Below, in pieces: positions 40,737-64,000 of a DNA stretch of 64,000 nucleotides. A program made the position numbers and the translations under genes. Under the pieces are notes generated by a model. The model had not been told where the DNA came from. It did not search any database and saw only the letters and a list, made by a program, of their open reading frames with translations. The number at the start of each line of letters is the position of its first letter. The first letter of the stretch is position 1. The DNA is taken from positions 1 through 64,000 of the IMG/VR virus record IMGVR_UViG_3300043446_002337. One strand, given 5' to 3'. The DNA is from a virus.

Positions 40737-40765
40737 TTGACAAAAATTATAGTCTAATATATATT
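40737..40765 (+). promoter_or_regulatory. sigma70-type promoter of the accessory module
   Basis: A perfect -35 TTGACA (40737-40742) is separated by 17 bases from a -10 TATATT (40760-40765), 33 bases before the ATG at 40799. It differs from the TATTTATW elements in front of structural genes and fits host RNA polymerase. Confidence 0.75.
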
Positions 40766-40798
40766 TAAAAATGGTTATAAACTAAGAGGTTATATTTT

Positions 40799-41257
40799 AT
40801 GAGTGAAATAACATTTGAAACATTATTGGCAGCAGTAAATACTAACCCATCGGACTACGAAGAAAGGTATGTCCGATGGGTTTCTATTGGTTATGACAAA
40901 AAAGTTCTTTGTGAATTATTGTATGAATTACAATATCTGAAGGAAAAGAATGAATGGCCAGAACGTATTACATTTCTAGAAACCGTATTGGCTCAGCACA
41001 GTCCACAACATTTATTGAATTTATTAAATAACGAACCACAAACCGCACGATTTGCAATGATTGAAAAATGGGCAAGACATGCGGCGATGGAAATACTCAT
41101 ATTTGATAAATACAGTATTGAAACGTTGAATACGGTGACGCAGTTTCCTCTAGCGGATTATCAACTGTTTGTAAAACGAGTATACGAAATAACAGCTATG
41201 ATTCGTGATATTACCACACAAGCATCGGCTCTTGCCTCTGGGGTCGCTGGACTATGA
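40799..41257 (+). CDS. first gene of accessory module, helical protein of unknown function
   Basis: 152 residues, all-helical by composition, with no recognised motif. AGAGG lies upstream of the ATG. The coding sequence contains a perfect 12-bp inverted repeat 45 bases after the start. ATGA overlap ties it to the glycosyltransferase gene that follows. Confidence 0.55.
   Translation: MSEITFETLLAAVNTNPSDYEERYVRWVSIGYDKKVLCELLYELQYLKEKNEWPERITFLETVLAQHSPQHLLNLLNNEPQTARFAMIEKWARHAAMEILIFDKYSIETLNTVTQFPLADYQLFVKRVYEITAMIRDITTQASALASGVAGL
40844..40882 (+). repeat. 12-bp perfect inverted repeat inside the first accessory gene
   Basis: AACCCATCGGAC and GTCCGATGGGTT flank a 15-base spacer, forming a stable RNA hairpin shortly after the start codon of the leading cistron. 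There is no U-tract after it, so it is not a standard terminator. Confidence 0.7.
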
Positions 41258-41949
41258 AAAATATCTATGATTTGAGTATTTGGCAAACTAGACCAACTAA
41301 ATTAGCAATCCTTATTCCTTGTAGAGAATCAGTATATAGTTTATTTACTGCTTCATTGGTTGAATTGGTAAAAACTACGACAATGGCAGGAATTGATGTA
41401 CACGTAGTATATGACCAAAGTACTATATTATTAACTCAACGGGAACGATTGGCACAACAAGCATTAGCTATGAAAGCCGATTACGCACTATGGCTCGACT
41501 CAGATATGATGTTCCCAAGCACTACTGCAATGCGGTTGATGGGACATAATGTAGACATCGTATGTTCCAATTATATGAAACGGTCAGTTCCACTCCAAAC
41601 GGTCGCATATCCAGAACGTGGTAATTGGGAAAATTGGTTACCATTGGAAGCAGACCAAGAACTTCAAGAAGTGGAAGGTGTGGGTATGGGGTGTATGTTG
41701 ATGAAAACAGAAGTATTAAATAAAATTGTCCCACCGTATTTTGCGTTTGAATATAAAGATAAAGAATGGCACGGTGAAGATTTCTTCTTCCAAAATAAAT
41801 TACGAAACGCTGGATATAAAATACTGATTGATATGAATCTTAGTTTCCAAGTTCGTCACGTTGGACAGTGGGCGTTTGGTCCAAGTATTGGAACAAACGA
41901 AGAACAAAGAATTAAGAGACATACAAAAAAGGTAAAGAAAAATGGTTAA
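41254..41949 (+). CDS. GT-A fold glycosyltransferase (GT2-like)
   Basis: 231 residues. The N-terminus KLAILIPCRESVYSLFTASL, then the metal/nucleotide-sugar motif LWLDSDMMFP (DxD at 82-84), and the acceptor/base segment EYKDKEWHGEDFFFQNKLRN with a final QVRHVG, are typical of small family-2-like glycosyltransferases of phages and bacteria. No membrane anchor. It should transfer a sugar from an NDP-sugar to an unknown acceptor. It starts by ATGA overlap and its end overlaps the next gene. Confidence 0.8.
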   Translation: MKNIYDLSIWQTRPTKLAILIPCRESVYSLFTASLVELVKTTTMAGIDVHVVYDQSTILLTQRERLAQQALAMKADYALWLDSDMMFPSTTAMRLMGHNVDIVCSNYMKRSVPLQTVAYPERGNWENWLPLEADQELQEVEGVGMGCMLMKTEVLNKIVPPYFAFEYKDKEWHGEDFFFQNKLRNAGYKILIDMNLSFQVRHVGQWAFGPSIGTNEEQRIKRHTKKVKKNG

Positions 41950-43063
41950 TAATGAAACGTGGTTGGCACATAGTGATTTATTTAAGAAATATTGGGTTGT
42001 AGAAACTCGTCCGTGGGTCCGAAGTCTTGGGTGGTTTACCGATTATATGGAAACAGTCAAAGACGCTGATGGATGGGCACAGGCAGGTGAAAAAGAACTA
42101 AGTGTATTTGATTACGTACAGATTGTTGATACACCGTTAGCAGAAAAGAAACTGTATCGGTGTGTGAACGGAGTTACGTGGGAACATATTACCGGACCTG
42201 TACTTTTTGTCGTTCGTAAGGATGCAGAGCAAGTATTCATTGCAGGGTGGGCAGGAGAAAGGAAGATAATTGAAAAGATGAAGAAGGAAAGTGATGACCC
42301 TTGGAAATGGTCAGAAAAGATGATTGTGGAAGTGAATCCAGAATCCGCCGTCAGAACTGTATCTGTTATTCGTAAACCAAGAGCAACAGACATTCCTGTA
42401 TTCTTCATCAGTAATGGTGAGGCAAATGCAGATAAGAATTGGTCACATCTAACAAACCTGTATTCAAAGGCGATTCGTATCGATGGTATTGATGGACGAA
42501 GAAAGGCGTTCCATCGGTGTGTGGACTTAGCCGGAGAAGCTCGCCAATTCTTTGTAATCACAGGAAAAAACTATCTCACAGATGTGACGGCGTTTAACTA
42601 TCCTGTACATGCTATTCCTGATGCACACGTAGTGTTTCAAGCAAAAAATATGAGTAACCGATTAGAATACGGTCATATGGGTATCGTATGTTATAATACC
42701 AATCTTGTACTGAATACTCCTGCGAACTTCGGATTAGATTTCACACAATATAGTAAAACGGTATCTATCCCACTTACAGTAAGTGAAGCACACTTTGCAA
42801 CTTCACCGTATGAAGCATGGAGAACTGCGTTCCGTGAAACGGTGAAGTTAACATTACAATATTCCACCGATGCACATCTCTGGTTACAACGATGGTTGGC
42901 GTTTGCAGAAGGTGAGAATGCTGAATGGGTACTGAAGGGTGCGAAAGACGGTCACGAATACGCACAACAACACGAAAAGAATCCAGAAGCACTTCGTAAT
43001 ACGGTTGATTGGCACTGGTTAGAACAACACTTTGAAGAAATGTACGGTGAGGGTAAACTATGA
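41942..43063 (+). CDS. glycosyltransferase-like protein of the aquatic-phage type
   Basis: 373 residues. The central segment VFFISNGEANADKNWSHLTN, KAIRIDGIDGRRKAFHRCVD, FFVITGKNYLTD resembles a family seen in T4-like cyanophages. There, two such halves recognise a 'F-x-S-x-x-E-x-N-A-D' pattern and a 'D-G-D' or 'G-K/N' site, and the proteins are annotated as glycosyltransferase-like. Here the expected acidic DxD is replaced by TGKNY, so catalytic competence is uncertain. N-terminal 150 residues contain a weaker version of the same fold. No membrane segment. Confidence 0.55.
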   Translation: MVNNETWLAHSDLFKKYWVVETRPWVRSLGWFTDYMETVKDADGWAQAGEKELSVFDYVQIVDTPLAEKKLYRCVNGVTWEHITGPVLFVVRKDAEQVFIAGWAGERKIIEKMKKESDDPWKWSEKMIVEVNPESAVRTVSVIRKPRATDIPVFFISNGEANADKNWSHLTNLYSKAIRIDGIDGRRKAFHRCVDLAGEARQFFVITGKNYLTDVTAFNYPVHAIPDAHVVFQAKNMSNRLEYGHMGIVCYNTNLVLNTPANFGLDFTQYSKTVSIPLTVSEAHFATSPYEAWRTAFRETVKLTLQYSTDAHLWLQRWLAFAEGENAEWVLKGAKDGHEYAQQHEKNPEALRNTVDWHWLEQHFEEMYGEGKL

Positions 43064-43176: not shown

Positions 43177-43803
43177 ATGACTACCATATCAGATACTATT
43201 CAAATAAATTCATCTAGAATAATAGCATGGATGAATGTACTACGTGACGAAAAGCAAGAAACACAACATAGACTACTAGAAAATTTTTGGGACAGTCAAA
43301 TTAGAAGTAAGGCGTGGTTAATAAATGCAGTTCAACATTATTTTCCAAATACACGCGGAAGAATCTATATTTTAGGTGGTTGGTATGGATTGATGGCACA
43401 ACTAATGGTTGATAATTTTCCAAATATTAATCGTGTATACAGTATTGATAATGACCCAAAATGTATAGAATATGGAAAATCATTATCAAACGGTGATTCT
43501 AAAATAATGTTTTTAGCGAGAGGAATGGAAACATTTGACAGTTATGTAAATCCGCAGTTAATAATAAACACAAGTACAGAACATATTACGGAAGAATCAT
43601 ATACGTCATGGTGGTCAGTAATACCAGCAGGTACTCCAATAGTACTACAAGGTAATAATTTGTTTGACTGTGCAGAACACATTCGTTGTAACAAAAGTTT
43701 GGATGAGTTTAATAAAAATAATCCGATAGATGATATCATATTTACCGGCCAATTAAGTTGCGGACACTTTGACAGATATATGACACTAGGATACAAGCGA
43801 TGA
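43177..43803 (+). CDS. SAM-dependent methyltransferase-like protein
   Basis: 208 residues with a class I Rossmann layout: motif I is IYILGGWYG (residues 63-71, a GG-W-YG form seen in phage methyltransferases), motif II VYSIDNDP (87-94), a later LIINTSTEHI strand in place of the usual D-P-P-Y/W motif, and a strand-rich C-terminus. It probably methylates a small molecule or sugar of the module. The unusual motif IV leaves the substrate open. It overlaps the radical SAM gene by ATGA. Confidence 0.7.
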   Translation: MTTISDTIQINSSRIIAWMNVLRDEKQETQHRLLENFWDSQIRSKAWLINAVQHYFPNTRGRIYILGGWYGLMAQLMVDNFPNINRVYSIDNDPKCIEYGKSLSNGDSKIMFLARGMETFDSYVNPQLIINTSTEHITEESYTSWWSVIPAGTPIVLQGNNLFDCAEHIRCNKSLDEFNKNNPIDDIIFTGQLSCGHFDRYMTLGYKR

Positions 43804-45248
43804 TTAAAGACCATTATATAAATGCTAAAAGAAAATTGGATGTCATAAGTCCTACATTGTGTATGGCTAAATGGCACCAAGTAACACTACATTTAGGAAC
43901 TGGAACGAATCACAGTTGTCACCATCCTATGCCACATCATATTCCAGTAGAAGAACTGAAAAATAATCCATCGGCTATTCATAATACACAATTTAAGAAA
44001 GAACAACGAAAATTAATGTTGGACGGTAAACGTCCGTCTGAATGTGATTATTGTTGGAGAGTTGAAGATGCACAGAACGAAAAAATAAGAGAAGGTCAGT
44101 CGGATATATTCAGTGATAGAATAACAAAAAGTAGTGAACCATGGGCAATGGATAAGATTAGCACCATAGCAAAAATGCCATGGGATTCTAATATAAATCC
44201 ATCCTATATAGAAGTAGACTTTGATACTACATGCAATTTTAAATGTATGTACTGTTCACCGTCATATTCTACCACATGGATGCAGGAAATTAAACAACAT
44301 GGTCCGTATAATCTGCCTGGTTTCTCATTTAATAGTGTTGACCACTTAAAGACGGGCACAGGATTACCAATTCTTCAAAACGAAGAAAACCCATATATTG
44401 ATGCATTCTGGAAATGGTGGCCCGATGCAGTACATGATTTACATACATTTAGAATTACTGGTGGGGAGCCTCTCTTAAGTAAACATACTTTTAAGATGTT
44501 AGATTATTTGATTGATAATCCGCAACCACAATTAGAATTTAGTGTTAATTCTAACTTGGGAGCACCAAAAGAAATTATTGATAAATTTATTGAAAAGATG
44601 TGTATTATCGCAGATAATAAAAGTGTTAAGAATTTTAAGTTGTTTACCAGTAATGAGGCACATGGTAAAAAAGCAGAGTATATCCGATTCGGATTAAATT
44701 ATAATGAATGGTTTAATAACGTGGACAGAGTACTTGCAGAAATACCAGACAGTCGTGTAACAATTATGAGTACGTACAACATCCTTTCAGTAACATCATA
44801 TACAGACTTCTTAAAGGATATGTTAGCACTTAAGTTAGAGTACAGTCACCCAGACCATAGACAATTACCATTATCGGTAGATATTCCCTATTTACGTCAC
44901 CCACAATTTTTAGCGGCATGGGTGTTAACAGAAAACTTCCTACATGAATATGTACGAGATACAGTTACTTTCATGTATAAAAACCAAGAATATTCTGGTT
45001 GGTATCCACTAGCAACAAAGGGGTTCTATGATTACGAAATTCATCGTATGGAACGTTTATACTATACGTTGTTACACTCACTAGGAGTGAACAAACCAGA
45101 AAATATTCAGGGACGAATTAATTTTTACAATTATATTATGGAATATGACCGTAGAAGAGGAACAGATTTTAAGAGTACATTCCCAGAATTAGAAGGATTC
45201 TTTATGTTCTGTAGAGACACGGCAGAAAAAACAAAACTTAATGTTTAA
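43800..45248 (+). CDS. radical SAM protein with N-terminal twitch-type auxiliary-cluster region (paralog 1)
   Basis: 482 residues. The N-terminal region has Cys21, Cys40, Cys82 and Cys85 in the order seen in twitch-domain radical SAM proteins (C-x-A-K-W, SCHHPMPHHI, PSECDYC). The radical SAM core follows with the CxxxCxxC motif CNFKCMYC at residues 145-152 and the SAM-binding GGEP motif (ITGGEPLLS). C-terminal sequence binds no recognised cluster. A close relative follows immediately. Such proteins cleave SAM to a 5'-deoxyadenosyl radical. Reaction unknown; in a sugar module it may be epimerisation, dehydration or peptide modification. Confidence 0.85.
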   Translation: MIKDHYINAKRKLDVISPTLCMAKWHQVTLHLGTGTNHSCHHPMPHHIPVEELKNNPSAIHNTQFKKEQRKLMLDGKRPSECDYCWRVEDAQNEKIREGQSDIFSDRITKSSEPWAMDKISTIAKMPWDSNINPSYIEVDFDTTCNFKCMYCSPSYSTTWMQEIKQHGPYNLPGFSFNSVDHLKTGTGLPILQNEENPYIDAFWKWWPDAVHDLHTFRITGGEPLLSKHTFKMLDYLIDNPQPQLEFSVNSNLGAPKEIIDKFIEKMCIIADNKSVKNFKLFTSNEAHGKKAEYIRFGLNYNEWFNNVDRVLAEIPDSRVTIMSTYNILSVTSYTDFLKDMLALKLEYSHPDHRQLPLSVDIPYLRHPQFLAAWVLTENFLHEYVRDTVTFMYKNQEYSGWYPLATKGFYDYEIHRMERLYYTLLHSLGVNKPENIQGRINFYNYIMEYDRRRGTDFKSTFPELEGFFMFCRDTAEKTKLNV

Positions 45249-45250: not shown

Positions 45251-46699
45251 ATGGACCACCCACACTTAATAGATTGGCGAGAAAAACATTTAAATAGTAT
45301 TGGTCGTGGATTTTGTGCTGCGAAGTGGTTTAACGCCAGTATTTACTTGGGGCATGGATTTAACGGTTCATGTCACCTTCCGCTACCACATCCTATTGAC
45401 GTAGAGGAAATAAAAACAAATCCATCCGCGATACATAACACTGCCCATAAAAAAGAAGTTAGAAAAATGATGTTAAGTGGGACTAGACCAGCAGAGTGTT
45501 CCTACTGTTGGAAGATAGAAGATATTGGTAGAAACAATATTTCTGACCGTGTATTTAAAAGTATGATTTATGACGGTGGTGAGATTGCCTCGTTGAAAAA
45601 CCTATCGGGTGATGAAGATGTACTGTTAAAAACAGTAGAAATTAGTTTTGACAGAACTTGTAATTTTGCTTGTAGTTATTGTAATGCCGGATATAGTACA
45701 ACTTGGGCAAAAGAAATTAATACATTTGGTCCATACCAGCGTTTAATATCAGATAGTAAAGGAGCCTATCAATCCGATGGCTCTTGGGCAGAACCTTACG
45801 GCAAACACTCAGAGGACAATCCGTATGTCAAAGCGTTCCTAGAGTGGTGGCCTGAATTGTCTAAGAGTCTAATAGAAGTTAGAGTTACGGGGGGAGAACC
45901 GTTACTTAGCCATAACTTTTGGAAGTTTGTAGAAACCGTAAAGCAATATGATTCTACTAATATGCGGTTTGCGATTAATTCAAACATGGGAATGGAACGC
46001 GACGTATTAGATAAATTGGTAAGACTAACACACGAACTTCCTGTCAAAGAATTTTTTCTTTTTACTAGTAACGAAGCATATGGAAATCAAGCAGAATATA
46101 TTCGTGACGGACTAGACTATCAAAAGTGGAAAAATAATTTAATCTATTTTATAGAAAATGCTAGTAGTAAGGCAAGTGTAGTAACAATAATGATGACAAT
46201 TAATAGTTTGTGTCTGTTCAGTATTACAGATTTTCTTCAAGATATGATGGAACTAAAGAAAAAATATGGACACGTAAAACCTCATCTTGACTTTAATATT
46301 TTACGTTGGCCTGGATTTATGAGTCCGTTGGCGCTACCAGACCATCTAAAAAAGACAGTAAGAGATAATTTAGTGTCGTGGTATAGTAACTATAGATACA
46401 CCAGTGATTTGTTGGACAGTGGGGAGAAAAGTCAAATAGATAGATTAATTGATTACATTGAAGTTGTAGAAAAAGGACATAATTTCGTATCAGATGATAA
46501 ACAATATTTACATCACGATTTTAAAAGTTTTTATACACAATATGATTTTAGAAGAAGAAAAGATTTTAAAACCACATTTCCGCAATCTCTTGTTGATTGG
46601 TATAATACAATAGAAGTTCGTCGTGATTTGCCAATCGTGGATACTTTATGGGATGGTGCCATAACTCATTATGAAAGAGGGGAATATGACGCAAAATAA
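45251..46699 (+). CDS. radical SAM protein with N-terminal twitch-type auxiliary-cluster region (paralog 2)
   Basis: 482 residues, the same length as its upstream neighbour, and similar all along it. Auxiliary Cys22, Cys41, Cys83 and Cys86; core CNFACSYC at 137-144; GGEP in VTGGEPLLS. Two base pairs separate it from paralog 1, so the pair looks like an old tandem duplication that has diverged strongly but kept every cluster Cys. This suggests both remain active, perhaps on related substrates or as a heterodimer. Confidence 0.85.
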   Translation: MDHPHLIDWREKHLNSIGRGFCAAKWFNASIYLGHGFNGSCHLPLPHPIDVEEIKTNPSAIHNTAHKKEVRKMMLSGTRPAECSYCWKIEDIGRNNISDRVFKSMIYDGGEIASLKNLSGDEDVLLKTVEISFDRTCNFACSYCNAGYSTTWAKEINTFGPYQRLISDSKGAYQSDGSWAEPYGKHSEDNPYVKAFLEWWPELSKSLIEVRVTGGEPLLSHNFWKFVETVKQYDSTNMRFAINSNMGMERDVLDKLVRLTHELPVKEFFLFTSNEAYGNQAEYIRDGLDYQKWKNNLIYFIENASSKASVVTIMMTINSLCLFSITDFLQDMMELKKKYGHVKPHLDFNILRWPGFMSPLALPDHLKKTVRDNLVSWYSNYRYTSDLLDSGEKSQIDRLIDYIEVVEKGHNFVSDDKQYLHHDFKSFYTQYDFRRRKDFKTTFPQSLVDWYNTIEVRRDLPIVDTLWDGAITHYERGEYDAK

Positions 46700-47477
46700 A
46701 AGATGTTTTGCATTTGGTTGTAGTTACACTAAATATAGATGGCCTACCTGGGCAGATGTTATAGGCGAAAATTTTCATTTTTATAAAAACTATGGTCGTG
46801 GTGGGGCATCTAACCTTTACATACTACAAAAATTTATTCAAGCTAACGACTTGTATAAATTTACGAAAGATGATGTTATACTTGTAATGTTAACTGGGTT
46901 TGGACGTTTTACTTATTATGAAAATAACGCCTTACATACTCATGGAGAAATTAGAAGTTGGTACCACAGTACACAAAATCCGTCGATGGGTAAGTTTTTA
47001 GATAGTGGAATATGGACAGAAGATTTAGGTGCAACAAACTCATATATAGCCGCTAAGACTATAAAAGAATTATTAACTCATATAGGATGTGAGTATAAAA
47101 TTCATTTAGCGATAGATAACTCACATTTCATAAAACACCCATCCAGATTTTTACAAACAGAAATAGCTTTACATTTTGCTGAGAAGTTTTATAGTGTCTT
47201 AGACATTACTTGGTCAATGGATGAGTGGATGAAACAACGATATAATGATGATGATTATTATAAATTTGATGATGAACCACACGACCATCATCCAACAATT
47301 GATATGGCAGAAAATTATGTTATGGAGTATTTTCCAAAATATTATACGGAAACGTCCAAACAGTTTATAAACACAGAGAAAAATCAAATTATATGGGCAA
47401 GTCATTCAAAGCAAGGACACGTATACTCTGAAAGACAGTTGGAGCGATGGGGTAAAGATGAGGTACAGGTATGGTAA
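46686..47477 (+). CDS. SGNH/GDSL hydrolase-like protein (copy 1)
   Basis: I chose the ATG at 46686, preceded by AGAGGGG, giving 263 residues; an in-frame ATG at 46671 lies before this site. FAFGCSYTKY (Ser13) is the block I Ser of the SGNH family, YGRGGASN carries a block II Gly and possibly the block III Asn, and DEPHDHHPT near the end carries the Asp-x-x-His. No signal peptide. SGNH proteins add or remove acyl groups on sugars. Confidence 0.65.
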   Translation: MTQNKRCFAFGCSYTKYRWPTWADVIGENFHFYKNYGRGGASNLYILQKFIQANDLYKFTKDDVILVMLTGFGRFTYYENNALHTHGEIRSWYHSTQNPSMGKFLDSGIWTEDLGATNSYIAAKTIKELLTHIGCEYKIHLAIDNSHFIKHPSRFLQTEIALHFAEKFYSVLDITWSMDEWMKQRYNDDDYYKFDDEPHDHHPTIDMAENYVMEYFPKYYTETSKQFINTEKNQIIWASHSKQGHVYSERQLERWGKDEVQVW

Positions 47478-48928
47478 CAAAACTTTCTATTCCATTTTTA
47501 TATGACTACGTTTTCCCGAATTTTATATTACCAAATGCTCTAATGCTGGAATATGGAATCGTAAATTATTTACATACTATGTACGATAACAGACTTAGTA
47601 TGAACAGTTTTTTTGAAGAAAAGTTAGTAAAAAATGATAAATATGAAACCGCGGTACCTCATGTGTATGGAAATGCGTTAGGATTATGGCCAAATAGTCT
47701 TAGACATAATGGTTCTCATATGAAAGCAGCAATGTATGAAACAAAGGTTAATATTATTGAAGAATCATTATATTTAGGGAAAACAAAATACCAACGATAT
47801 ATTTATCCCATAAAAGTTCCGCCACATTTTGATAAATTTACTGGATACAATATATCCGATTGTCCTAGATTAAACGGAGAATATTTTTGGAAGCATATGT
47901 CCGCAGAGGCATTGGCTGACGCTCGGAGTGGAAAAGCTATAATCTTTTTAGATTACGCTCAAGAAAACTCTATTGAAAAAATGGATTATGACCGTTTACA
48001 TGCTGCCCTAGAGTTTTCATACATACCTGCAAAAAACATCATATTAGCATTCAACAGCTTTAATGCTAAGGAAGTTTATGAATCGTGGTATAAACCAGAA
48101 TACAGACGATTGGAAGTCTGGAACTGGCCATTTATGACCACAAACTCATCTTATCATTATAAACATCATATTCAATCAAATGGACAAGCAGTAGTAAGCA
48201 CGCATGAATTTAAACAATCCGCTTTAAAGTTACGAAAAAACCACTTGTTATTCAAAATTCGTAGACGGCGTGACCATCGTATGGCATTATTGTATAAGTT
48301 TGTATCCGATGGTTTACTAGATAAAATAGATTGGTCATGTCTAGAAGAACATCAATTTGAAGAAAACACGGTTCGTAGGGTAGCAGAACGATACGGACTT
48401 GAAAATAATATAGACGCCGTTCGTACTCTGTATGAAACTGTAGGTATTCCACATTTTCTTCAAAGTGAGCAAGAAGAAGATAAGAATTATCATAGTATAC
48501 ATGGTTGGACCCCGTGGGATGGTCAAGCGCACAAAGAATCGTATGTATACCTATGTACGGAAACAGTAACAGACACACCGTATAAAGCAATAACAGAAAA
48601 GGTATTCAAACCTCTTGCCAATTTCATGCCACTTATATTCTTTGGTCCTCCGAATACACTAACACTTTTACGAGAACTAGGATTTAAAACATTTTTTCCG
48701 TGGATTGATGAAAGTTATGATGTGGAATTAGACGATAGAAAAAGAGCACAAATGATATACACAGAAATAAAACGTTTGTGTTCTATGAATTTAGAAGATT
48801 TACATAAGTGGTATTGGGAGATGGAAGATATTTTACTTCACAACAGAGAAGTGATACAAGTATTATATGAGCAAGAAAAAGAAAGTATAAAATTAATAGA
48901 ATATCTATACAGTAGAGTTACACAATGA
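47471..48928 (+). CDS. putative GT-B glycosyltransferase, family 'EKxF-GFKTF-DESYD' (copy 1)
   Basis: 485 residues. The C-terminal third has ITEKVFKPLANFMPLIFFGP, LRELGFKTFFPWIDESYD, and a final helix LHKWYWEMEDILLHNREVI. The proteins at 52738 and 54122 have the same three parts. The E-K-x-F/W signature followed by a Pro-rich strand resembles GT10 fucosyltransferases and exostosin-like GT-B enzymes, where it binds the nucleotide-sugar. The N-terminal half is unique. GAGG precedes the start, which overlaps the SGNH gene by 7 bases. Confidence 0.6.
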   Translation: MVTKLSIPFLYDYVFPNFILPNALMLEYGIVNYLHTMYDNRLSMNSFFEEKLVKNDKYETAVPHVYGNALGLWPNSLRHNGSHMKAAMYETKVNIIEESLYLGKTKYQRYIYPIKVPPHFDKFTGYNISDCPRLNGEYFWKHMSAEALADARSGKAIIFLDYAQENSIEKMDYDRLHAALEFSYIPAKNIILAFNSFNAKEVYESWYKPEYRRLEVWNWPFMTTNSSYHYKHHIQSNGQAVVSTHEFKQSALKLRKNHLLFKIRRRRDHRMALLYKFVSDGLLDKIDWSCLEEHQFEENTVRRVAERYGLENNIDAVRTLYETVGIPHFLQSEQEEDKNYHSIHGWTPWDGQAHKESYVYLCTETVTDTPYKAITEKVFKPLANFMPLIFFGPPNTLTLLRELGFKTFFPWIDESYDVELDDRKRAQMIYTEIKRLCSMNLEDLHKWYWEMEDILLHNREVIQVLYEQEKESIKLIEYLYSRVTQ

Positions 48929-51308: not shown

Positions 51309-51778
51309 TTATCATAGTTGATATTGATAGTACTCTTTGTATTCATGAAAAGAGACAACACATTGCCACGGATATTAATGGTAAATTGGATTGGGATATT
51401 TTTTATGCGTATGAAAATATTATTACTGACGAACCTATTTGGGAAACGATAAATAATGTACGCCGATATAAAGATAAAAACTTTAGAATAGTAATCTTTA
51501 CTTCTAGACCAGAAATAACGCGAAATGCTACAGAAACTTGGTTACGTAAGTATGAAATACCGTATGATTCGTTACACATGCGAAGTGTTGAAGAACACAA
51601 AATACCTGCTGTAGAATTAAAAAAGAAAATGTATGACACGATTATTGACGATAAAGTTTTTTGCGCATTTGAAGACAAGGAAGAAATAGTTGATTTGTGG
51701 TTATCGTTGGGGATACCAACATTTAAGGTAGAATATGAACACCATAGAACGTCAGATAAAATTATTATTAAAAAATAA
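51305..51778 (+). CDS. HAD-superfamily phosphatase-like protein
   Basis: 157 residues. VDIDSTLCIH (Asp6, Asp8) is HAD motif I, IVIFTSRPE motif II and TIIDDKV a motif IV-like acidic pair. It resembles the small phage HAD group related to polynucleotide-kinase 3'-phosphatases and to sugar-phosphate phosphatases. In this module a sugar-phosphate substrate is more likely. ATGA overlap before, 44-base overlap after. Confidence 0.75.
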   Translation: MIIIVDIDSTLCIHEKRQHIATDINGKLDWDIFYAYENIITDEPIWETINNVRRYKDKNFRIVIFTSRPEITRNATETWLRKYEIPYDSLHMRSVEEHKIPAVELKKKMYDTIIDDKVFCAFEDKEEIVDLWLSLGIPTFKVEYEHHRTSDKIIIKK

Positions 51779-56474: not shown

Positions 56475-57203
56475 ATGGAAACTATTCTAGGTAATCTACC
56501 AGACTCAGAACGGTCTGTTTTATTTAATGAAGGAGTATATGTAGGTAATATATTCAACTTTATAAAACAAGATGAAGTAGAAATATTTGAGAGACTTACA
56601 AAAGATTTACAAAACTATATCGTACATAATCGCGATAGCTTAGTGTGTAGATATGACTATGAACGTACTACGGAAGAAATAAACTCTGATATACCGTGGA
56701 AACATGCGATACCTTTAGCAGAAGTTCCGGAAAGAGATAAATTTGTAAAAGAAAACAATAGATTTGTTCAACAAATATTTCTTGAATTTGGTCATGATAC
56801 AGTACCACCACAACACGAAGATGTTAAGTTTGTTATGGAAGTATATAAGAGAATAGTAGAATTTTTCTACCCACATATGGAAATACACTATCCAGAAAAA
56901 CCTATGTTCATGTTATACGAAGATGGGCACTTTATAAGTGAACACAGAGATGGTAAAAATCCAGGTAGAGTTTGTGTTTTGATATTCTATTTATCTGACG
57001 AAAAAGATTATAACAACGGTGGTGGAGAATTGATTTCTATAACAAACTCGGGAAAACGTATAGAAACCAAACCAGTATTTAGTACATTTAGTATGATGGA
57101 CTTTACTGCAAATGACCCAATGCATTCGGTCAATATGGTAAAAAATGGTTTTAAACGATTATCATCTATATTCTTCCTTTACGAAAAGGATAAACAACAA
57201 TAA
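56475..57203 (+). CDS. 2-oxoglutarate/Fe(II)-dependent oxygenase (prolyl-4-hydroxylase-like)
   Basis: 242 residues. A double-stranded beta-helix with HRD (His157, Asp159), distal MHSV (His217) and FKR (Arg228) gives the iron- and oxoglutarate-binding triad plus Arg. GGGEL (182-186) is the hinge before the second half. T4-like cyanophages carry related genes. The proline-free fibres make collagen proline an unlikely substrate; a sugar, another side chain or a small molecule is more likely. A strong GGGGAGAAAG leader precedes the ATG. Confidence 0.8.
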   Translation: METILGNLPDSERSVLFNEGVYVGNIFNFIKQDEVEIFERLTKDLQNYIVHNRDSLVCRYDYERTTEEINSDIPWKHAIPLAEVPERDKFVKENNRFVQQIFLEFGHDTVPPQHEDVKFVMEVYKRIVEFFYPHMEIHYPEKPMFMLYEDGHFISEHRDGKNPGRVCVLIFYLSDEKDYNNGGGELISITNSGKRIETKPVFSTFSMMDFTANDPMHSVNMVKNGFKRLSSIFFLYEKDKQQ

Positions 57204-57215: not shown

Positions 57216-58376
57216 ATGAAAATAGGTATACGATTTAGTGGTAAAGGTCCATCTGGATATAATGATATTTTTTATTTTCTACATACTTTACAAGCAGGAA
57301 AAGTAAAAGAAATATCTACAGAATATTTAGGGTGTGAAATACAGTACAGAGACAATACGTATTTATTTTCGGCAAAGGAACTTGAAGATGATTGTGATAT
57401 CAAGGTGTTTGCCGCCCACGACACACAGTATATTCACTCATGCATAGAGTCAGATACCGAGTATCAACGTATAAGAAATACATATGATACTATAGTACTG
57501 TTTAGTCCGGGTGAAGCGTTGGTCACACGTATTTCTGATGAAATGTTACAAAAATTTTTAGATGAAGGTAATTTTTATGTAACAGGAACTACCAACATAT
57601 CATTTGAACACAAAAACCTATTCATAGATAAATTTATGGGGCCAAAGTTTTTGTACTATCAGTTAGGATTTAATTACATTAACTTTTATCAGAATACAAA
57701 AACAAAACGTAGTCTAGTGGGTGTGTACCACCGGACACAATACATTAATGATGTTGTACGTTCCTTACCATGTAAAAAGTCAACAATACGTAATGAGGTA
57801 GTAAACAAATTAAAAGAATTATTAGATACGGACTTGACAATCTATGAAAATAACCATATATTACACCCAGAGATTTTAGAGCCTTATAATTTTTTAGGAC
57901 TATGGGTTACAAATCATATATCTGGATATTCTGACTATGCCACAAGTGTATGTAATTTGATTTTTGAAAGTTTTGCTCCACATGAAGATTCACCAAGAGC
58001 TAGTCTTAGTGAAAAAACTATAAAAGCAATTATCTTTGGTAAAGAAAACATATTCTTCATGTGGCACGGACCAGATGATTTATTCATATATCTAAAAAAT
58101 TTGGGATTTTGGTTTTTAAATATGGAGTTCTATGATTTCAAAACTCCCAACAGAGATGAAATGACGGTATCGGTTATACGAACTATTGAATACTTAAAAC
58201 ATCTACAGACACAATTTAAAACGAATGACGAATTGTTTCAATATTTATATGATAGACACGGTGAAAAATTACTTACAAATTATTATAAATTCAAAGAACA
58301 ACTAATAGATACGTCTATTGGAAATAATATACTTACTTCTTTACATAATTTCAGCAGGGGGAACAATGAGGTTTGA
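57216..58376 (+). CDS. diverged GT-B-like protein related to the 'EKxF' family
   Basis: 386 residues. It contains YCNLIFESFAPHEDSPRASL-like and LSEKTIKAIIFGKENIFFMW, LKNLGFWFLNMEFYD in place of the EKxF, GFKTF and DESYD motifs of copies 1-3. The order and spacing match, but the residues are weaker. It may be a fourth, more distant glycosyltransferase. The middle contains KRSLVGVYHRTQYIND where the other copies have the N-R-x-x-R segment. Confidence 0.45.
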   Translation: MKIGIRFSGKGPSGYNDIFYFLHTLQAGKVKEISTEYLGCEIQYRDNTYLFSAKELEDDCDIKVFAAHDTQYIHSCIESDTEYQRIRNTYDTIVLFSPGEALVTRISDEMLQKFLDEGNFYVTGTTNISFEHKNLFIDKFMGPKFLYYQLGFNYINFYQNTKTKRSLVGVYHRTQYINDVVRSLPCKKSTIRNEVVNKLKELLDTDLTIYENNHILHPEILEPYNFLGLWVTNHISGYSDYATSVCNLIFESFAPHEDSPRASLSEKTIKAIIFGKENIFFMWHGPDDLFIYLKNLGFWFLNMEFYDFKTPNRDEMTVSVIRTIEYLKHLQTQFKTNDELFQYLYDRHGEKLLTNYYKFKEQLIDTSIGNNILTSLHNFSRGNNEV

Positions 58377-59358
58377 TGATAAAATTTTAGTTACTGGTGC
58401 TAGTGGTTTTATAGGTTCTCATGTTTTACGGTTACTTTTTAAAAAAGGATACATGAATCTTAGAGCAGCGGTACATAGTAGAGATTTACGAGGAGACTTC
58501 AAAGGTTCTCAAAACATTGAAACGTTTAAAGGTGACCTTCGTGACGCAGAGTTTTGTTCAAAAGTAACCGAAGGTGTTGACATAGTAATACACTGTGCAG
58601 CTAATACTTCTAACGCATTAGATACTAAGTTTAATCCACTTCTTCATGTTACCCCTAACATTGAGATGACAGTAAACTTATTAGAACAGAGTTGGAAAAA
58701 TAAGGTCAAAAAAGTTTTATACGTGTCGTCCAACACAGTATATCCTGATATGCAAGAAGATGACTGCGCAGAATGGATGGATGTGCATTCCACACCATTA
58801 ATTCCAGTATACAAGGGTGTAGGTGGAATGAAACGGTACTGTGAACTATTATGTGATTTCTTCTCAAATCAAATACACAACCCCATGCAGTGTATTATAG
58901 TTCGGCCATCAAATGCATTCGGACCAAACGACAAGTTTGATTACGAAAAATGTCACGTAACCCCCGCAAATATTAGAAAGGTAGCGGATGAACTCAATCC
59001 GATTCCCGTATGGGGAGATGGAACCGAGGTTCGGGACTTATTACACGTAGAAGATATGGCAGAGGGATTCATCTATATCATGGAGAAGTGTGATAAGTAC
59101 GACATTTATAACGTTGCTTATGGTCAAGCTTATTCGGTAAATGAAGTACTACAATGGTTGAAGGAACTTGAAAATAATGAAAATCCAATTTCTTACGTGA
59201 ATAATAAAGCTCCGATGATTCCGATACGAAAATTATCAAGTAAAAAGGTAAATGCGTTAGGGTGGGTACCTAAACGTGAGTTAAAGGAAGCATTGAAAGA
59301 GACTATAGACTGGTATAAATCCAACAAACATTTATACAACCCAGATTCAACACCATAA
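58366..59358 (+). CDS. NAD-dependent epimerase/dehydratase (extended SDR), atypical active site
   Basis: Start at the ATG at 58366, preceded by AGGGGGA and overlapping the previous gene by 11 bases; 330 residues. TGASGFIGSH (Gly11, 14, 17), DLRD, VLYVSSNTVYP and IVRPSNAFGPNDKFD are typical. The Tyr-x-x-x-Lys is VGGMK (152-156), with Val in the Tyr position and a Tyr three residues earlier (Tyr149). WGDGTEVRDLLHVEDMAEGF is the usual C-terminal signature. It probably acts on an NDP-sugar of the module. Confidence 0.75.
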   Translation: MRFDDKILVTGASGFIGSHVLRLLFKKGYMNLRAAVHSRDLRGDFKGSQNIETFKGDLRDAEFCSKVTEGVDIVIHCAANTSNALDTKFNPLLHVTPNIEMTVNLLEQSWKNKVKKVLYVSSNTVYPDMQEDDCAEWMDVHSTPLIPVYKGVGGMKRYCELLCDFFSNQIHNPMQCIIVRPSNAFGPNDKFDYEKCHVTPANIRKVADELNPIPVWGDGTEVRDLLHVEDMAEGFIYIMEKCDKYDIYNVAYGQAYSVNEVLQWLKELENNENPISYVNNKAPMIPIRKLSSKKVNALGWVPKRELKEALKETIDWYKSNKHLYNPDSTP

Positions 59359-59365: not shown

Positions 59366-60304
59366 ATGAAAAAAGTATTGATTACAGGTGGCGCAGGATA
59401 TTTAGGGTCAACAATAACCGAACATTTGTTAACACAAGGATACTCAGTAACAGTTCTAGATAACTTAATGTATAAACAATTATCACTGTTACATTTATTT
59501 AAACACACATCCTTTAATTTTGTGTTAGGAGATGTTCGAGATGTAACCTTATTACAAAACCTGGTACAAGCTCACGATATTATAATACCACTTGCAGCTA
59601 TAGTAGGAATGCCTGCTTGTAAAAATAATCCGCAATTAACAATAGACACGAATTATCGTCAAATACAAAATATTTTATCGGTGATAACTGATAAACAAAA
59701 ATTAATATTACCCAATACGAATAGTCAGTATGGGTCATCGGAAACGATTATTACTGAGGATAGTCCGTTTAAACCACTATCTTTATACGCAGAAACAAAA
59801 TGCGATGCGGAAAACGCCATGTTAGCTCATGGTAACGGAGTATCATTACGTCTCGCCACAGTTTTCGGTGTATCACCACGGATGCGACAAGATTTATTGG
59901 TGAATGACTTTGTATATAAAAGTGTAGTAGATGGATATCTGGTTCTGTTTGAAGGACACTTTAAACGAAATTATATTCATGTACAAGACATAGCACGTAC
60001 CTTTCAATTTGTTATTGAAAACTATGAAAAATGTAAAGGACACGCGTTCAACGTCGGATTGTCTACAGCAAATTTAAGTAAGTTAGAGTTGGCAGAACGG
60101 ATTAAAACCTATATACCTTCGTTAGTTATAAAGCAGGATGAATTTAAAGAAGATTTTGATAAACGAAATTATATAGTATCTAATGAGAAACTGGAGAGAT
60201 TAGGTTGGTATCCGATATATGATTTAGATTATGGGATACAACAGTTGATAAATGCATACAAATTTGTTATTATTCATAATAATAGAAATTTTACAAATCT
60301 ATAA
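59366..60304 (+). CDS. NAD-dependent epimerase/dehydratase (extended SDR), typical active site
   Basis: 312 residues. TGGAGYLGS (Gly8, 11, 14), LDNLMY, GDVRDV, LPNTNSQYG and the intact catalytic pair YAETK (Tyr141, Lys145). The catalytic Ser/Thr before it is in NTNSQYGSS. It resembles GalE/RmlB-type 4-epimerases or 4,6-dehydratases. Unlike its two SDR neighbours it keeps the catalytic Tyr, so it may be the one that does the 4-keto chemistry of the pathway. Confidence 0.82.
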   Translation: MKKVLITGGAGYLGSTITEHLLTQGYSVTVLDNLMYKQLSLLHLFKHTSFNFVLGDVRDVTLLQNLVQAHDIIIPLAAIVGMPACKNNPQLTIDTNYRQIQNILSVITDKQKLILPNTNSQYGSSETIITEDSPFKPLSLYAETKCDAENAMLAHGNGVSLRLATVFGVSPRMRQDLLVNDFVYKSVVDGYLVLFEGHFKRNYIHVQDIARTFQFVIENYEKCKGHAFNVGLSTANLSKLELAERIKTYIPSLVIKQDEFKEDFDKRNYIVSNEKLERLGWYPIYDLDYGIQQLINAYKFVIIHNNRNFTNL

Positions 60305-60307: not shown

Positions 60308-60541
60308 ATGACACAGGATATTAGGGAAGATAAAAAAAGAACAATGTTAAAAACAGTTACGTGGCGTATCGTAGCAGTATTTAATTCGTGGATAATATTA
60401 TCAATTGGTATTGGTAACACAAATTTACAAAAAGCATTGTTGATGAATAGTACTGGATTTTTTGTATTTTATTTTTTTGAAAGAGTGTGGAGTAAAATAA
60501 ATTATGGTAGATATGTTATGGGGGATACTGTAAATGAGTAA
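60308..60541 (+). CDS. DUF2061 membrane protein
   Basis: 77 residues. KKRTMLKTVTWRIVAVFNSW followed by a second hydrophobic segment and FFERVWSKINYGR matches the DUF2061 family, small proteins with two membrane helices, sometimes fused to adenylylsulfate kinase in cyanophages. It should sit in the host inner membrane with both ends in the cytoplasm. Function unknown; here it lies between an epimerase and an SGNH-like gene. Confidence 0.8.
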   Translation: MTQDIREDKKRTMLKTVTWRIVAVFNSWIILSIGIGNTNLQKALLMNSTGFFVFYFFERVWSKINYGRYVMGDTVNE

Positions 60542-61538
60542 TTGGAAAGATAAAGTGGAATCCGAAAAAATTAATTTGAACATAGACAAGTCTAATTTCA
60601 TAAAACAATCTTATAATGTCCATGTTACTAAAGACCACCCACACTATCCATGGCTTTTAGAAAAAAGAAATTGGAGAGTAGCGAATGATTATCCATGGAA
60701 AAAATCTCCATTAGAAAAACGCAAAGTTCAAGGTATTGCATTTTTAGGATGTTCTTTCACGTGGGGACAAGGATTATATTTCTATAGTAACTTAGATTCG
60801 TTACGAGAACCAGAATATTGTCGTTATGATTCATTATTAGTTAAACCAAGTCATGTAAAATACGCAGAGTCAGTAAGGTTTAGTAGAACGGTAGCCAATC
60901 ATTTTAACACATTTGATATGGCAGTACCGAGTAATGGAGGAACTAATCAAACAATAATTAGATGGTTTATTGATGATGTACTGAACATACCAAACAGTTC
61001 AAACTTTGGTGGTACATACGCTCCGTGCGAATTCAGCGACTTTTCACACATAGTTTTTCAAATGACCGAATGGTCGCGCAAAAGATTTTATATAACTGTA
61101 GATGGTACACGATATGAGTTATTGAACAATAACCATAAACATGACACTAAAATCTCTTCTATATTTGACAAGTTTTTATTAGAAAATGGTATTACTATTG
61201 ATGAGTTTGAACAATTTATGGTTGAATCAAATTTTCAAGATGTAAAAGATTTTCTACAATTTGTTGAACAAAATGGAGTAAAAACATATGTTATGACTTG
61301 GCCTGACGCATATGTATCATTAATAAAAAATGATGAATTTATGAATGAAAGGTTTATACAATTTTCTTATAAAGATACACACTTTGATTCAATAACTGAG
61401 CTAATGAATCAACACAAGGAAATGGTCATCATGTATGATTATGAAGAATTTGTTGATACACCGAAAGATATGCATCCGTCACTAAAATGTCATCAAGTCA
61501 TAGCGAATTCAATTATCAAAAAAATGGAAAAGGTGTAA
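60534..61538 (+). CDS. SGNH/GDSL hydrolase-like protein (copy 2)
   Basis: 334 residues. GIAFLGCSFTWGQG (Ser74 in block I), AVPSNGGTNQTIIRW (Gly/Asn of blocks II and III) and DMHPSLKCHQ near the C-terminus (Asp-x-His) give a complete SGNH set. The N-terminal 65 residues are a separate charged region. The start overlaps the DUF2061 gene by 8 bases. Confidence 0.7.
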   Translation: MSNWKDKVESEKINLNIDKSNFIKQSYNVHVTKDHPHYPWLLEKRNWRVANDYPWKKSPLEKRKVQGIAFLGCSFTWGQGLYFYSNLDSLREPEYCRYDSLLVKPSHVKYAESVRFSRTVANHFNTFDMAVPSNGGTNQTIIRWFIDDVLNIPNSSNFGGTYAPCEFSDFSHIVFQMTEWSRKRFYITVDGTRYELLNNNHKHDTKISSIFDKFLLENGITIDEFEQFMVESNFQDVKDFLQFVEQNGVKTYVMTWPDAYVSLIKNDEFMNERFIQFSYKDTHFDSITELMNQHKEMVIMYDYEEFVDTPKDMHPSLKCHQVIANSIIKKMEKV

Positions 61539-61539
61539 T

Positions 61540-62079
61540 ATGAGTAAACCGAGCATGAGTCCTTATAAAGATTCTTTAACGGACATAATGACAACGTTAG
61601 CACAAGACGAAAATACTATATTTATCGGACAACAGATAGTATATGCCGGTAATCCTATGAGTACTACACTAGGTAATGTACCCAAAGAAAAAATGATAGA
61701 AGTTCCCGTTATGGAAGAAACACAAATGGGAATGACGTTGGGGTTAGCTATAACTGGAAAAACTGTAGTTTCTTTTTACCCACGTTGGGATTTTATAGTT
61801 TCCGCAACAAATCAATTGGTAAATCATGTTGATAAGTATGAGTTAATGACCGGTAAAAAAGTTAATATATTAATTCGTTTAGGAAAGGGTAGTGATGTAC
61901 CACTTGACCCAGGACACCAACACAAAAACGACTACCTCACAGAATTTTCTTCTATGTGTAAAAACATAACGTTCCACAATTTATCAGATGTAACAAAAAT
62001 AAAACCTGCATACCAATCTGCTATAGAAAACGGTGGCATACATATACTCGTAGAATATCCACAATTATATTTTGTATGA
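61540..62079 (+). CDS. ThDP Pyr-domain protein, E1-beta-like, lacking the C-terminal domain
   Basis: 179 residues against about 325 for E1-beta. IFIGQQIVYAGNPMSTTLGN, VPVMEETQMGMTLGLAITG (catalytic Glu59 or Glu60) and SFYPRWDFIVSATNQLVNHV match the Pyr domain of E1-beta subunits; a C-terminal transketolase C domain is absent. Its PP-domain partner is at 49475, about 11 kb upstream. Together they could make a minimal two-subunit ThDP enzyme, resembling in size the alpha/beta ThDP decarboxylases; the reaction is unknown. Confidence 0.75.
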   Translation: MSKPSMSPYKDSLTDIMTTLAQDENTIFIGQQIVYAGNPMSTTLGNVPKEKMIEVPVMEETQMGMTLGLAITGKTVVSFYPRWDFIVSATNQLVNHVDKYELMTGKKVNILIRLGKGSDVPLDPGHQHKNDYLTEFSSMCKNITFHNLSDVTKIKPAYQSAIENGGIHILVEYPQLYFV

Positions 62080-62879
62080 AAAAGAAACTTCTAATAACAC
62101 TAGGATGTTCGTTTACTGAGGGAGTGGGTTGTTATGACCCACTGTTATTAGATACAAATGGTAAACCTATATACGACGAGGGGTTGGTTTACAATTCAAG
62201 TGTAGACAGATTTCATACATTAGGTTGGCCAGCTAAACTACAAAAAAAATTACAATATGATTGTTTGTGGAACCTAGGGCATGGGGCAGCTTCTAATTCT
62301 GAAAATGTTAAACGATGGACAGAGATATTCTCAACAAAAAAGATTTCAGACGAGTACGATGTATTAGTAATATGGATGCTTACATTTTCTGGTAGGATAA
62401 GTTTTTATAAAGATGGTAAAATTCGCAGTGTACTACCAGGAAGTAAAAATCCGACAGATGTAAATCATATCTTCTATAACAGTTATCTAAATTTTCTTGG
62501 AGATAACTTTAATAAAGATATGATACTAGAGATGTATTTTTATGTTAATATAATAAAAACAATATGTGAACTATCAAATTACAAGTTTTTATATATTAAT
62601 ACGAGTAATAGTGAAGGAAGAGATTTAGATTTACTAACAAAGAGCACCAACAGCTTAAACTTTGCATACAAAACACTATATCCAGAATATAATAGTGTGT
62701 TAGATAGAAATGATTACGCAAAGTATTCTGCGTTTTGTGGTCACCCAAACGAAAATGGTTACGAACTTATTGCAGAACGGTTATTCCAGATGATATTACA
62801 CGAACACAAATATTTAGTAAACAATAATACACCAGAAACATACGACATGCTATATTTGGGAGAACCCAGACAGTGGTAA
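62076..62879 (+). CDS. SGNH/GDSL hydrolase-like protein (copy 3)
   Basis: 267 residues. LITLGCSFTEGVG (Ser12), NLGHGAASNSENVK (Gly/Asn) and AFCGHPNENGYELIAERL (His with Gly in place of the usual Asp). It overlaps the E1-beta-like gene by ATGA. The missing Asp may make this copy a non-catalytic or altered version. Confidence 0.65.
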   Translation: MKKKLLITLGCSFTEGVGCYDPLLLDTNGKPIYDEGLVYNSSVDRFHTLGWPAKLQKKLQYDCLWNLGHGAASNSENVKRWTEIFSTKKISDEYDVLVIWMLTFSGRISFYKDGKIRSVLPGSKNPTDVNHIFYNSYLNFLGDNFNKDMILEMYFYVNIIKTICELSNYKFLYINTSNSEGRDLDLLTKSTNSLNFAYKTLYPEYNSVLDRNDYAKYSAFCGHPNENGYELIAERLFQMILHEHKYLVNNNTPETYDMLYLGEPRQW

Positions 62880-64000
62880 TTTGGGGAATTTCAGCAAATA
62901 GTCATGATGCTGCCATCACGGTGATTGAAGATAAAGAAATCTTGTTTGCATCACAATCCGAAAGATACTCAGGTGTGAAGAATGATGCTCATTTAAATTC
63001 TGGTATTGTTATTGATGCAAAAAGATATGGAGAGCCAGATTTAGTTGTATGGTATGAAACACCATGGTTAAAATCATTACGACAACTACGGTCTGGTCAG
63101 GGGTGGATATCCAATAATGTTAGAAAATATCTAAATCAATATAACATCTCCGCACCATTTACTACTGTAGGTCATCATCACAGTCATGCAGCAGGAGGAT
63201 ACTACACCTCTAACTTTGATGAAGCCGCCATCTTGGTGATTGATGCCATTGGTGAGTTTGATACCACAACCATTTGGTATGGAAAGGGAACCAAGTTGGA
63301 AAAGAAGTTTTCCATTAAATATCCTCATAGTTTGGGATTATGGTATTCTGCCATGACGCAACGTGTAGGATTGAAACCAAACGAAGAAGAATACATTCTC
63401 ATGGGTATGGCGGCATATGGCGACCCATTTAAATATGCACCTACGATGTTAGAGGATTTCTTTGACAGTAAACATATGTTGAAGTTGAATCATAATCTTC
63501 ATCGGGGATGTATGTGGTGGCGTCCTGAATTAAACACGGAACAGGACAAATATGATATTGCTGCCGCCACACAATTCATCTATGAAATGATGTTCCATGA
63601 TTTACTGGATGAAGCCAAGAAACTCACAGGAAGTAAAAACTTAGTGCTAGGCGGTGGGTGTGCCTTGAATTGTGTCGCTAACAGCATCGCCTTTCAGTAT
63701 TTTGAACGTGTCTGGATTATGCCAAACCCAGGTGATGCCGGAAATAGTTTAGGTGCTGTGTTGGGATATACAAACGAACATATATCATTTATATCACCGT
63801 TTTTAGGATATGATATAAAAGGAGAATATCCAATAGAGGGATTGACTTCTGAGTTAAAAAATGTTAAAATAGTAGGTGTAGCGAACGGGAAAGCGGAATT
63901 CGGTCCTAGAGCGTTGGGTAATCGTAGTTTATTAGCAGACCCACGTGGTACTGGAGTCAAGGATAAAGTAAATGAAATTAAACGTAGACAAAAATTCCGT
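62873..64000 (+). CDS. carbamoyltransferase (NodU/CmcH/TobZ family), 3' truncated by the window
   Basis: A GTG start at 62873, inside the end of the previous gene and after GGGAG, opens a frame that runs to the last base (376 codons; usual length 550-600). Typical segments are GISANSHDAA, ASQSERYSG, VGHHHSHAAGGYY, LWYSAMTQRVGLKPNEEEY with MGMAAYGDP, LVLGGGCALNCVANS, MPNPGDAGNSLGAVLGY and FGPRALGNRSLLADPR. These enzymes transfer carbamoyl from carbamoyl phosphate to a hydroxyl of sugars or antibiotics via carbamoyl adenylate. It would decorate the sugar made by this module. Confidence 0.88.
   Translation, partial: MVIWGISANSHDAAITVIEDKEILFASQSERYSGVKNDAHLNSGIVIDAKRYGEPDLVVWYETPWLKSLRQLRSGQGWISNNVRKYLNQYNISAPFTTVGHHHSHAAGGYYTSNFDEAAILVIDAIGEFDTTTIWYGKGTKLEKKFSIKYPHSLGLWYSAMTQRVGLKPNEEEYILMGMAAYGDPFKYAPTMLEDFFDSKHMLKLNHNLHRGCMWWRPELNTEQDKYDIAAATQFIYEMMFHDLLDEAKKLTGSKNLVLGGGCALNCVANSIAFQYFERVWIMPNPGDAGNSLGAVLGYTNEHISFISPFLGYDIKGEYPIEGLTSELKNVKIVGVANGKAEFGPRALGNRSLLADPRGTGVKDKVNEIKRRQKFR

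Follow-up and report, generated by a model that had tools for sequence, protein, structure and literature searches.

The stretch of DNA analysed here (the window, 64,000 nucleotides) comprises positions 1-64000 of IMGVR_UViG_3300043446_002337, an 83,768-base IMG/VR virus record from a large aquatic T4-superfamily myovirus. At 40799-62879 lie 23 tightly packed + strand genes, followed by a carbamoyltransferase gene that crosses the window end and stops at record position 64,324. The module that they open spans 40,799 to about 68.5 kb of the record, on the + strand throughout: after the carbamoyltransferase come, in order, genes for DUF2061, a conserved 138-amino-acid (aa) protein, and kinase-like, nucleotidyltransferase-like, QueC-like PP-loop, subtilase and sulfotransferase-like proteins. 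Its G+C content is 29-38% over most of its length versus 36-45% upstream. Upstream lie T4-superfamily virion genes (terminase, portal, gp23 capsid, sheath) and then two collagen-like tail-fibre genes, while fibre-like genes, a UvsW-like helicase gene and T4-type baseplate genes follow beyond about 68.5 kb. An earlier reading of the window, made without database searches (the sequence-only reading), had proposed a phage-borne module for glycan biosynthesis and transfer in this dense gene run and had asked whether it continues past 64 kb. It does; every listed open reading frame (ORF) is present, and both profile searches and recurrence in other viruses support the module. The features are as follows.

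34000-38403 and 38475-40538, +: two collagen-like tail-fibre genes with G-[ST]-[ST] repeats (PHROG tail fibre families, 7e-78; Pfam Collagen, Peptidase_S74); the second has a C-terminal endosialidase-type chaperone
40799-41257, +: 152-aa ORF at the module start, unmatched in Pfam and PHROG; a relative (G037) has an 84% homologue in the corresponding position
41254-41949, +: GT-A-type glycosyltransferase-like protein, Anp1/GT2-like (Anp1 3e-6, just below the cut-off; PHROG glycosyltransferase 3e-5)
41942-43063, +: likely GT-A-like protein (homologous domains with a DGDN motif in 25 loci; motif degenerate here)
43177-43803, +: methyltransferase-like protein, by motif only; no Pfam match
43800-45248, +: twitch-domain radical S-adenosylmethionine (SAM) protein 1 (NF033640, 5.5e-92)
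45251-46699, +: twitch-domain radical SAM protein 2 (NF033640, 1.6e-82)
46671-47477, +: SGNH-like protein, by motif GCSYT only; no profile match
47471-48928, +: member of the GT-B family of 52738 and 54122 (phmmer family overlap)
48925-49482, +: RmlC-like sugar epimerase (PF00908, 3e-33; catalytic His and Asp regions conserved)
49475-50104, +: diphosphate-binding (E1-alpha-like) subunit of a thiamine diphosphate (ThDP) enzyme, about 209 aa (E1_dh 2e-13); listed as ORF 49412, with 49475 the more probable start, as in most relatives
50109-51308, +: radical SAM protein with an N-terminal extension (PF04055, 1.6e-12)
51305-51778, +: HAD-type phosphatase-like protein, PNKP phosphatase domain family (PF25109, 8e-18)
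51735-52733, +: 332-aa protein of unknown function that accompanies the preceding radical SAM and HAD genes (gene orders in relatives)
52738-54138, +: GT-B glycosyltransferase by predicted fold, family representative (confident model; top Foldseek matches are GT-B enzymes)
54122-55453, +: GT-B family paralogue (phmmer family overlap)
55455-56459, +: extended short-chain dehydrogenase/reductase (SDR), GDP-fucose-synthase-like; canonical YxxxK Tyr absent (Pfam SDR profile, PDB comparison)
56475-57203, +: 2-oxoglutarate (2OG)-Fe(II) oxygenase (PF13640, 1e-7)
57216-58376, +: probable second glycosyltransferase-like family, distinct from the GT-B family; no profile match
58360-59358, +: extended SDR; canonical YxxxK Tyr displaced (Pfam SDR profile, PDB comparison)
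59366-60304, +: Cj1427-like GDP-heptose C4-dehydrogenase, by strong homology (PDB 6vo6)
60534-61538, +: SGNH-like protein recurrent in the cassette, by motif GCSFT only
61540-62079, +: pyrimidine-binding (E1-beta-like) subunit of the ThDP enzyme, about 179 aa (Transket_pyr 2e-6; catalytic Glu conserved)
62076-62879, +: SGNH-like protein, by motif only
62873-64000, continuing to record position 64,324, +: NodU/TobZ-type carbamoyltransferase (PF02543 1e-39; NodU family 2e-40)

Profiles bear out most of the enzymes that the sequence-only reading had named: the RmlC-like epimerase, three SDRs (all at E ≤ 5e-34), three radical SAM enzymes (two of them in the NCBIfam twitch family), the two-part ThDP enzyme, the oxygenase, which is of the 2OG-Fe(II) type, and the carbamoyltransferase. 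Its methyltransferase (43177) and three SGNH proteins (46671, 60534, 62076) are plausible by motif but have no profile support. Among its six glycosyltransferases, three (47471, 52738, 54122) form one family, with a GT-B fold modelled for 52738, and 41254 is weakly Anp1-like, below the cut-off. The HAD phosphatase-like gene at 51305 and the 138-aa protein beyond the window were additional to that account.

The module is not a chance assembly, because its core recurs in dozens of contigs. IMG/VR holds at least 199 relatives of the ThDP alpha subunit, and gene content was counted in the best 80 loci with 10-kb flanks; some of these contigs are near-identical, and the counts are lower bounds as the flanks are short. 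The RmlC-like gene is present in 77 of the 80, a GT-B family gene in 74, the Cj1427-like SDR in 70, a twitch radical SAM gene and each of the other two SDRs in 69, ThDP beta in 61, the 47471 glycosyltransferase in 59, the 138-aa protein in 35 and the carbamoyltransferase in 15. The RmlC-like and ThDP alpha genes are mostly adjacent, and the trio of radical SAM (50109), HAD and 332-aa protein genes stays together across loci. The core consists of the RmlC-like epimerase, the split ThDP enzyme, the three SDRs, the GT-B family and the twitch radical SAM proteins. Carbamoylation, oxygenase and SGNH genes are a variable periphery, a refinement of the sequence-only reading. The 138-aa protein (L002:1758-2174; record 64557-64973) is 74-91% identical in at least three phage lineages and usually adjoins the Cj1427-like SDR; its predicted four-helix bundle gave no fold match, and deposited phages gave no match to it.

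The capsid gene gp23 is present in 20 of 44 cassette records, and the contigs that carry it fall into at least four T4-superfamily lineages. These are the window's own clade, with Flavobacterium phage immuto as the best cultured match of the window capsid (54.7%); a clade nearest to immuto by shared type, with capsids 56-58% identical to that of the window; a jumbo-phage group resembling PA5oct, Vibrio 2.275.O and Sinorhizobium Phosso (66-68%); and a pelagic group resembling Melnitz and HTVC008M (66-67%). Jumbo and pelagic capsids are only about 33% identical to the window's in the aligned part, whereas the ThDP subunit is 67-80% identical, and from this difference we conclude that the cassette most likely moved between lineages. 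Within lineages, the tree of the concatenated core tracks the phage backbone, the immuto-like and window groups each forming one clade (100/99 support); the cassette is patchy and absent even in some near relatives. Median ratios of nonsynonymous to synonymous substitution (dN/dS; Nei-Gojobori, pairs with dS 0.05-1.5) are 0.05-0.13, about 0.1, in every gene tested, core and periphery alike, which indicates that the genes are in use and under strong purifying selection. A Pelagibacterales contig from a metagenome-assembled genome (L185, VHCC01000006.1, 23 kb) was considered as a bacterial home of the cassette and set aside: its gene order and identities match the phage cassette, and it is probably a phage contig that was binned with the bacterium.

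The best-identified enzyme of the module is the SDR at 59366, which strong homology marks as a GDP-heptose C4-dehydrogenase type. It is 52% identical over its whole length (310 columns, E 1e-98) to PDB 6vo6, which we take to be Campylobacter Cj1427, the next PDB match being at 4e-23, and its Y..K and surrounding motifs are conserved. Cj1427 acts on GDP-D-glycero-D-manno-heptose, oxidising its C4, and alpha-ketoglutarate is the final oxidant (PMC10680097). The RmlC-like protein scores 136 bits against the C. jejuni GDP-4-keto-heptose 3-/3,5-epimerases versus 89 against the best dTDP-RmlC in the PDB. The other two SDRs (55455-56459 and 58360-59358) are Fcl-like; the canonical YxxxK tyrosine is missing throughout 51 and 41 homologues, respectively, which are otherwise highly conserved. 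In bacteria, a Cj1427-like gene lies beside or near a gene for an HddA-like heptose kinase in all three contigs examined, and an HddC-like guanylyltransferase gene is found in two of the three; the contigs came from genomes with ThDP homologues, and the HddA-like and HddC-like scores fall below strict curated equivalog cut-offs. Genes for ThDP alpha, ThDP beta, SDR and RmlC stand consecutively in a surface-polysaccharide cluster of SAR11, together with an HddA-like kinase gene, beside ABC-transporter and GroEL genes. Because the Cj1427-like SDR, the epimerase matches, the Hdd-like neighbours in bacteria and the SAR11 cluster all point the same way, a GDP-heptose-type 4-keto-sugar route is the best inference for the core and, in our judgement, probably the correct one.

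Both ThDP subunits keep their cofactor motifs, a GD(M/G)..N motif in alpha and the catalytic Glu in beta; the best PDB match of alpha is the pyruvate dehydrogenase (PDH) E1 alpha subunit (3e-18). We suggest tentatively, by analogy, that this enzyme may add a two-carbon branch at C4 of a 4-keto heptose. The two-subunit complexes AviB1/AviB2 and Pau11/Pau12 have been proposed to add such a branch at C4 of a keto sugar (PMC4753412); the phage enzyme is likened to them by description, not by sequence, and differs in its minimal subunits, unfused and encoded 11 kb apart, and in its substrate.

The sugar substrate does not appear to be made by the phages themselves, a possibility that searches for supply genes left unsupported. 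Among 28 cassette records, SIS_2 (GmhA-type) domains were found in only two, far from the cassette, and NTP_transferase (HddC-type) domains in none; HddA was not searched separately. Cassette phages being mostly without heptose-supply genes, the precursor must therefore be provided by the host.

No member of the 47471/52738/54122 family, unified by phmmer overlap, has a Pfam or PDB sequence match. The structure that AlphaFold2 predicts for 52738 is confident (predicted local distance difference test, pLDDT, 94; predicted template modelling score, pTM, 0.90), and Foldseek aligns it with trehalose-phosphate synthases, SdgB, BshA, WaaG and fucosyltransferases at E down to 7.5e-5 and template modelling (TM) scores near 0.3. 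These matches support assignment to the GT-B fold class, which does not imply a donor. E355-K356 and R255 are invariant in the family. Assignment of the family to GT10 by sequence was rejected: it has no Pfam or PDB profile support, and fucosyltransferase structures rank below trehalose-phosphate-synthase-type enzymes and SdgB, with low TM-scores. The GT-A-like domain of 41942-43063 is found also within larger proteins (578-1,227 aa) at the opposite end of the cassette in jumbo lineages; its DxD motif is degenerate in the window clade.

Insertion sites vary by lineage, yet in three lineages the neighbours of the cassette are tail-fibre genes or large virion genes. The window clade has the cassette after the collagen-like fibres. 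In immuto-like phages it lies between homologues of window genes 1839-3650 and 3647-6529, which abut in the window, the former homologue being a tail-fibre/baseplate-type protein. In jumbo phages it is preceded by fibre-like genes and the gene of a protein of 2,910-5,315 aa, which in its 2,910-aa form matches a family of virion structural proteins. Two relatives whose capsids show 73% identity (G045, G046; L238-L241) are without the ThDP core; their version of the window's island, ahead of UvsW, holds different glycosyltransferase genes, PF11397 among them, and one of the two also has different SDRs and two carbamoyltransferases. Because these core-less sisters carry other glycosyltransferases at the same island, we read it as an exchangeable glycan island that appears tied to the fibre region. 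Among the members of PF11397 are cytoplasmic protein N-acetylglucosamine-transferases, and its presence is a hint, not proof, of protein acceptors. The collagen-like fibres at 34000-40538 are candidate acceptors. Very long G-[ST]-[ST] repeat fibres are found in the window clade, in another record (G040) and in two relatives by capsid in which no ThDP core was detected; such repeats were rejected as a universal acceptor, being absent from most cassette records. The large gene at 3647-6529, near the terminase gene, has a cytidyltransferase domain (PHROG 395) towards its C terminus, which is N-terminal in the immuto-like homologue.

We propose that the module is a horizontally spread glycan cassette of the tail-fibre region of T4-superfamily myoviruses that remodels a host GDP-heptose-type sugar and places it on virion fibres, and we give this best explanation a probability of roughly 0.5. 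The starting GDP-sugar would come from the host and would probably be GDP-D-glycero-D-manno-heptose or a closely related sugar of the GDP-mannose type. The Cj1427-like SDR would oxidise C4, as its strong homology suggests, and the RmlC-like enzyme, on good homology, would epimerise C3 and/or C5 of the 4-keto sugar. The two-subunit ThDP enzyme would then act on the keto sugar, perhaps creating a C4 branch as described above, and the Fcl-like SDRs might complete the sugar. Soluble enzymes of predicted GT-B and GT-A fold would transfer it in the cytoplasm, with carbamoyl, oxygenase and other genes presumably modifying it. The sugar would most likely end up on a virion protein, with the tail fibres next to the cassette as the foremost candidates, because of the position of the cassette, the lack of a detected flippase and its retention across lineages with different probable hosts. 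Among 28 related virus records neither the Wzx-family flippase PF01943 (controls positive 13/14) nor GtrA PF04138 (controls positive 7/14) was found, and few cassette proteins span the membrane. Several points weigh against this proposal. The heptose precursor would need host supply, given the scarcity of GmhA- and HddC-type genes in the phages, and of the two sugars GDP-mannose is the more common in hosts. The canonical catalytic Tyr is missing from two of the three SDRs, and the ThDP step has no close characterised relative. Most of the virus records are fragmentary, so a missing flippase gene is not proof, and both the enzyme-substrate assignments and the link from glycan to virion remain predictions.

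The main rival is that the cassette builds or modifies O-antigen or capsule during infection, excluding rival phages or preventing progeny from re-binding debris. Such host O-chain modification is how the glycosyltransferases of the pelagimyophage host recognition cluster, which are similar, are interpreted in the published account (PMC7029224), a further point against virion decoration; the core resembles the SAR11 surface-polysaccharide cluster, and soluble enzymes could modify a host lipid-linked glycan that host machinery then exports. The absence of Wzx and GtrA from the 28 records and the paucity of membrane-spanning proteins argue otherwise, as do the placement of the cassette within the virion gene block and its occurrence in lineages whose closest cultured relatives have widely differing bacterial hosts. 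We consider remodelling of the host surface possible, at clearly less than even odds.

Phage carbamoyltransferases and glycosyltransferases occur in DNA hypermodification pathways, and together with the 2OG-Fe(II) oxygenase they could suggest that the sugar is put on modified phage bases, as in T4 and in TET-glycosyltransferase-carbamoyltransferase pathways. The oxygenase, however, is of the PF13640 type, and neither the many glycosyltransferases and sugar enzymes nor the location beside the fibres fits well, which makes this explanation improbable; a search for Tet_JBP (PF12851) gave no match in the 28 records but had no positive control and is hence uninformative, and other entry enzymes were not searched. 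Sullivan et al. (PMC3037559) left open for the lipopolysaccharide (LPS) clusters of cyanophages that they are non-functional passenger or "stuffer" DNA, and the patchy presence of the present cassette, even among near relatives, would suit such a role. The low dN/dS in every tested gene largely refutes it, and core and catalytic residues are conserved across lineages; we regard it as very improbable.

That T4-like phages carry glycan genes in their tail-fibre region is known (PMC7029224, PMC3037559), and in this respect the remark of the sequence-only reading that it knew no described phage pathway with this combination needs narrowing. It holds for the core: none of 50,697 deposited phage genomes has the core, the GT-B family or the 138-aa protein as such, distant homologues of single enzymes being all that they contain, and no description of them was found in the literature searched; megablast of the module and a related-locus search with 54122 gave no match. 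As far as that literature goes, the conserved core is new. The pelagimyophage host recognition cluster (PMC7029224) is likewise a large variable island in a T4-like structural block with tail fibres and several glycosyltransferases, and the cassette too occupies a variable island next to tail fibres within the virion gene block, at a position that depends on the lineage. In pelagimyophages the island lies between VrlC and gp14, neither of which was identified around the cassette. The accessible part of that report describes no conserved sugar pathway of this kind, whereas the core enzymes of the cassette and their likely substrate can be given names; pelagimyophages are also a clade distinct from the window phage and from the jumbo lineages.

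The cyanophage clusters (S-SM2, P-SSM2, S-SSM7; PMC3037559) and P-TIM68 also combine nucleotide-sugar enzymes with glycosyltransferases in T4-like phages, and S-SM2 and P-TIM68 have a ThDP enzyme 40-44% identical to the window alpha subunit. Their ThDP halves, however, are fused in one gene, they have heptose-forming genes and an alcohol dehydrogenase, they show no strong match to the Cj1427-like SDR, the GT-B family or the 138-aa protein, and they lie near hli03, tRNA or nrd genes, not fibres. The GDP-heptose pathway of C. jejuni (Cj1427, Cj1430, Cj1428; PMC10680097) shares the C4-dehydrogenase, the epimerase family and Fcl-like SDRs, although the two in the cassette lack the YxxxK Tyr expected of an Fcl-type C4-reductase; it differs in being a chromosomal capsule locus with its own GDP-heptose synthesis, and no ThDP enzyme is mentioned. 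Mycobacteriophages glycosylate virion proteins with glycosyltransferases of their own (Freeman et al. 2023, cited in PMC12619734), but the proteins are the capsid and tail tube of siphoviruses, and the accessible part of the source describes no comparable sugar-making cassette.

Whether the many glycan genes of large aquatic phages change the host O-chain, coat the virion or are stuffer DNA becomes directly testable here, given a conserved core, a candidate first enzyme (the GDP-heptose C4-dehydrogenase), a GT-B family that is new and a position that recurs at tail fibres. For this cassette, stuffer DNA is disfavoured by the strong purifying selection. Should virion glycosylation be confirmed, phages would own an exchangeable surface-sugar locus, which would matter for adsorption and defence. 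In the most specific version of the proposal, several unrelated groups of large aquatic phages would share an exchangeable pathway from host GDP-heptose to a new, probably C4-branched sugar that O-glycosylates their own tail fibres via the new GT-B family, and would thus have a "serotype" locus much like the O-antigen loci of bacteria; we regard this version as doubtful.

Genes for QueC-like PP-loop proteins, subtilases and, in several cases, sulfotransferase-like proteins recur jointly near the cassette (L002:2951-5756, L039, L066, L068, G008, G037) and may form a second exchangeable unit. At the end of the record, among the baseplate genes, a protein (L003:1012-2550) carries repeats of the type LWSWGxNxxGELGLG that resemble RCC1 repeats.

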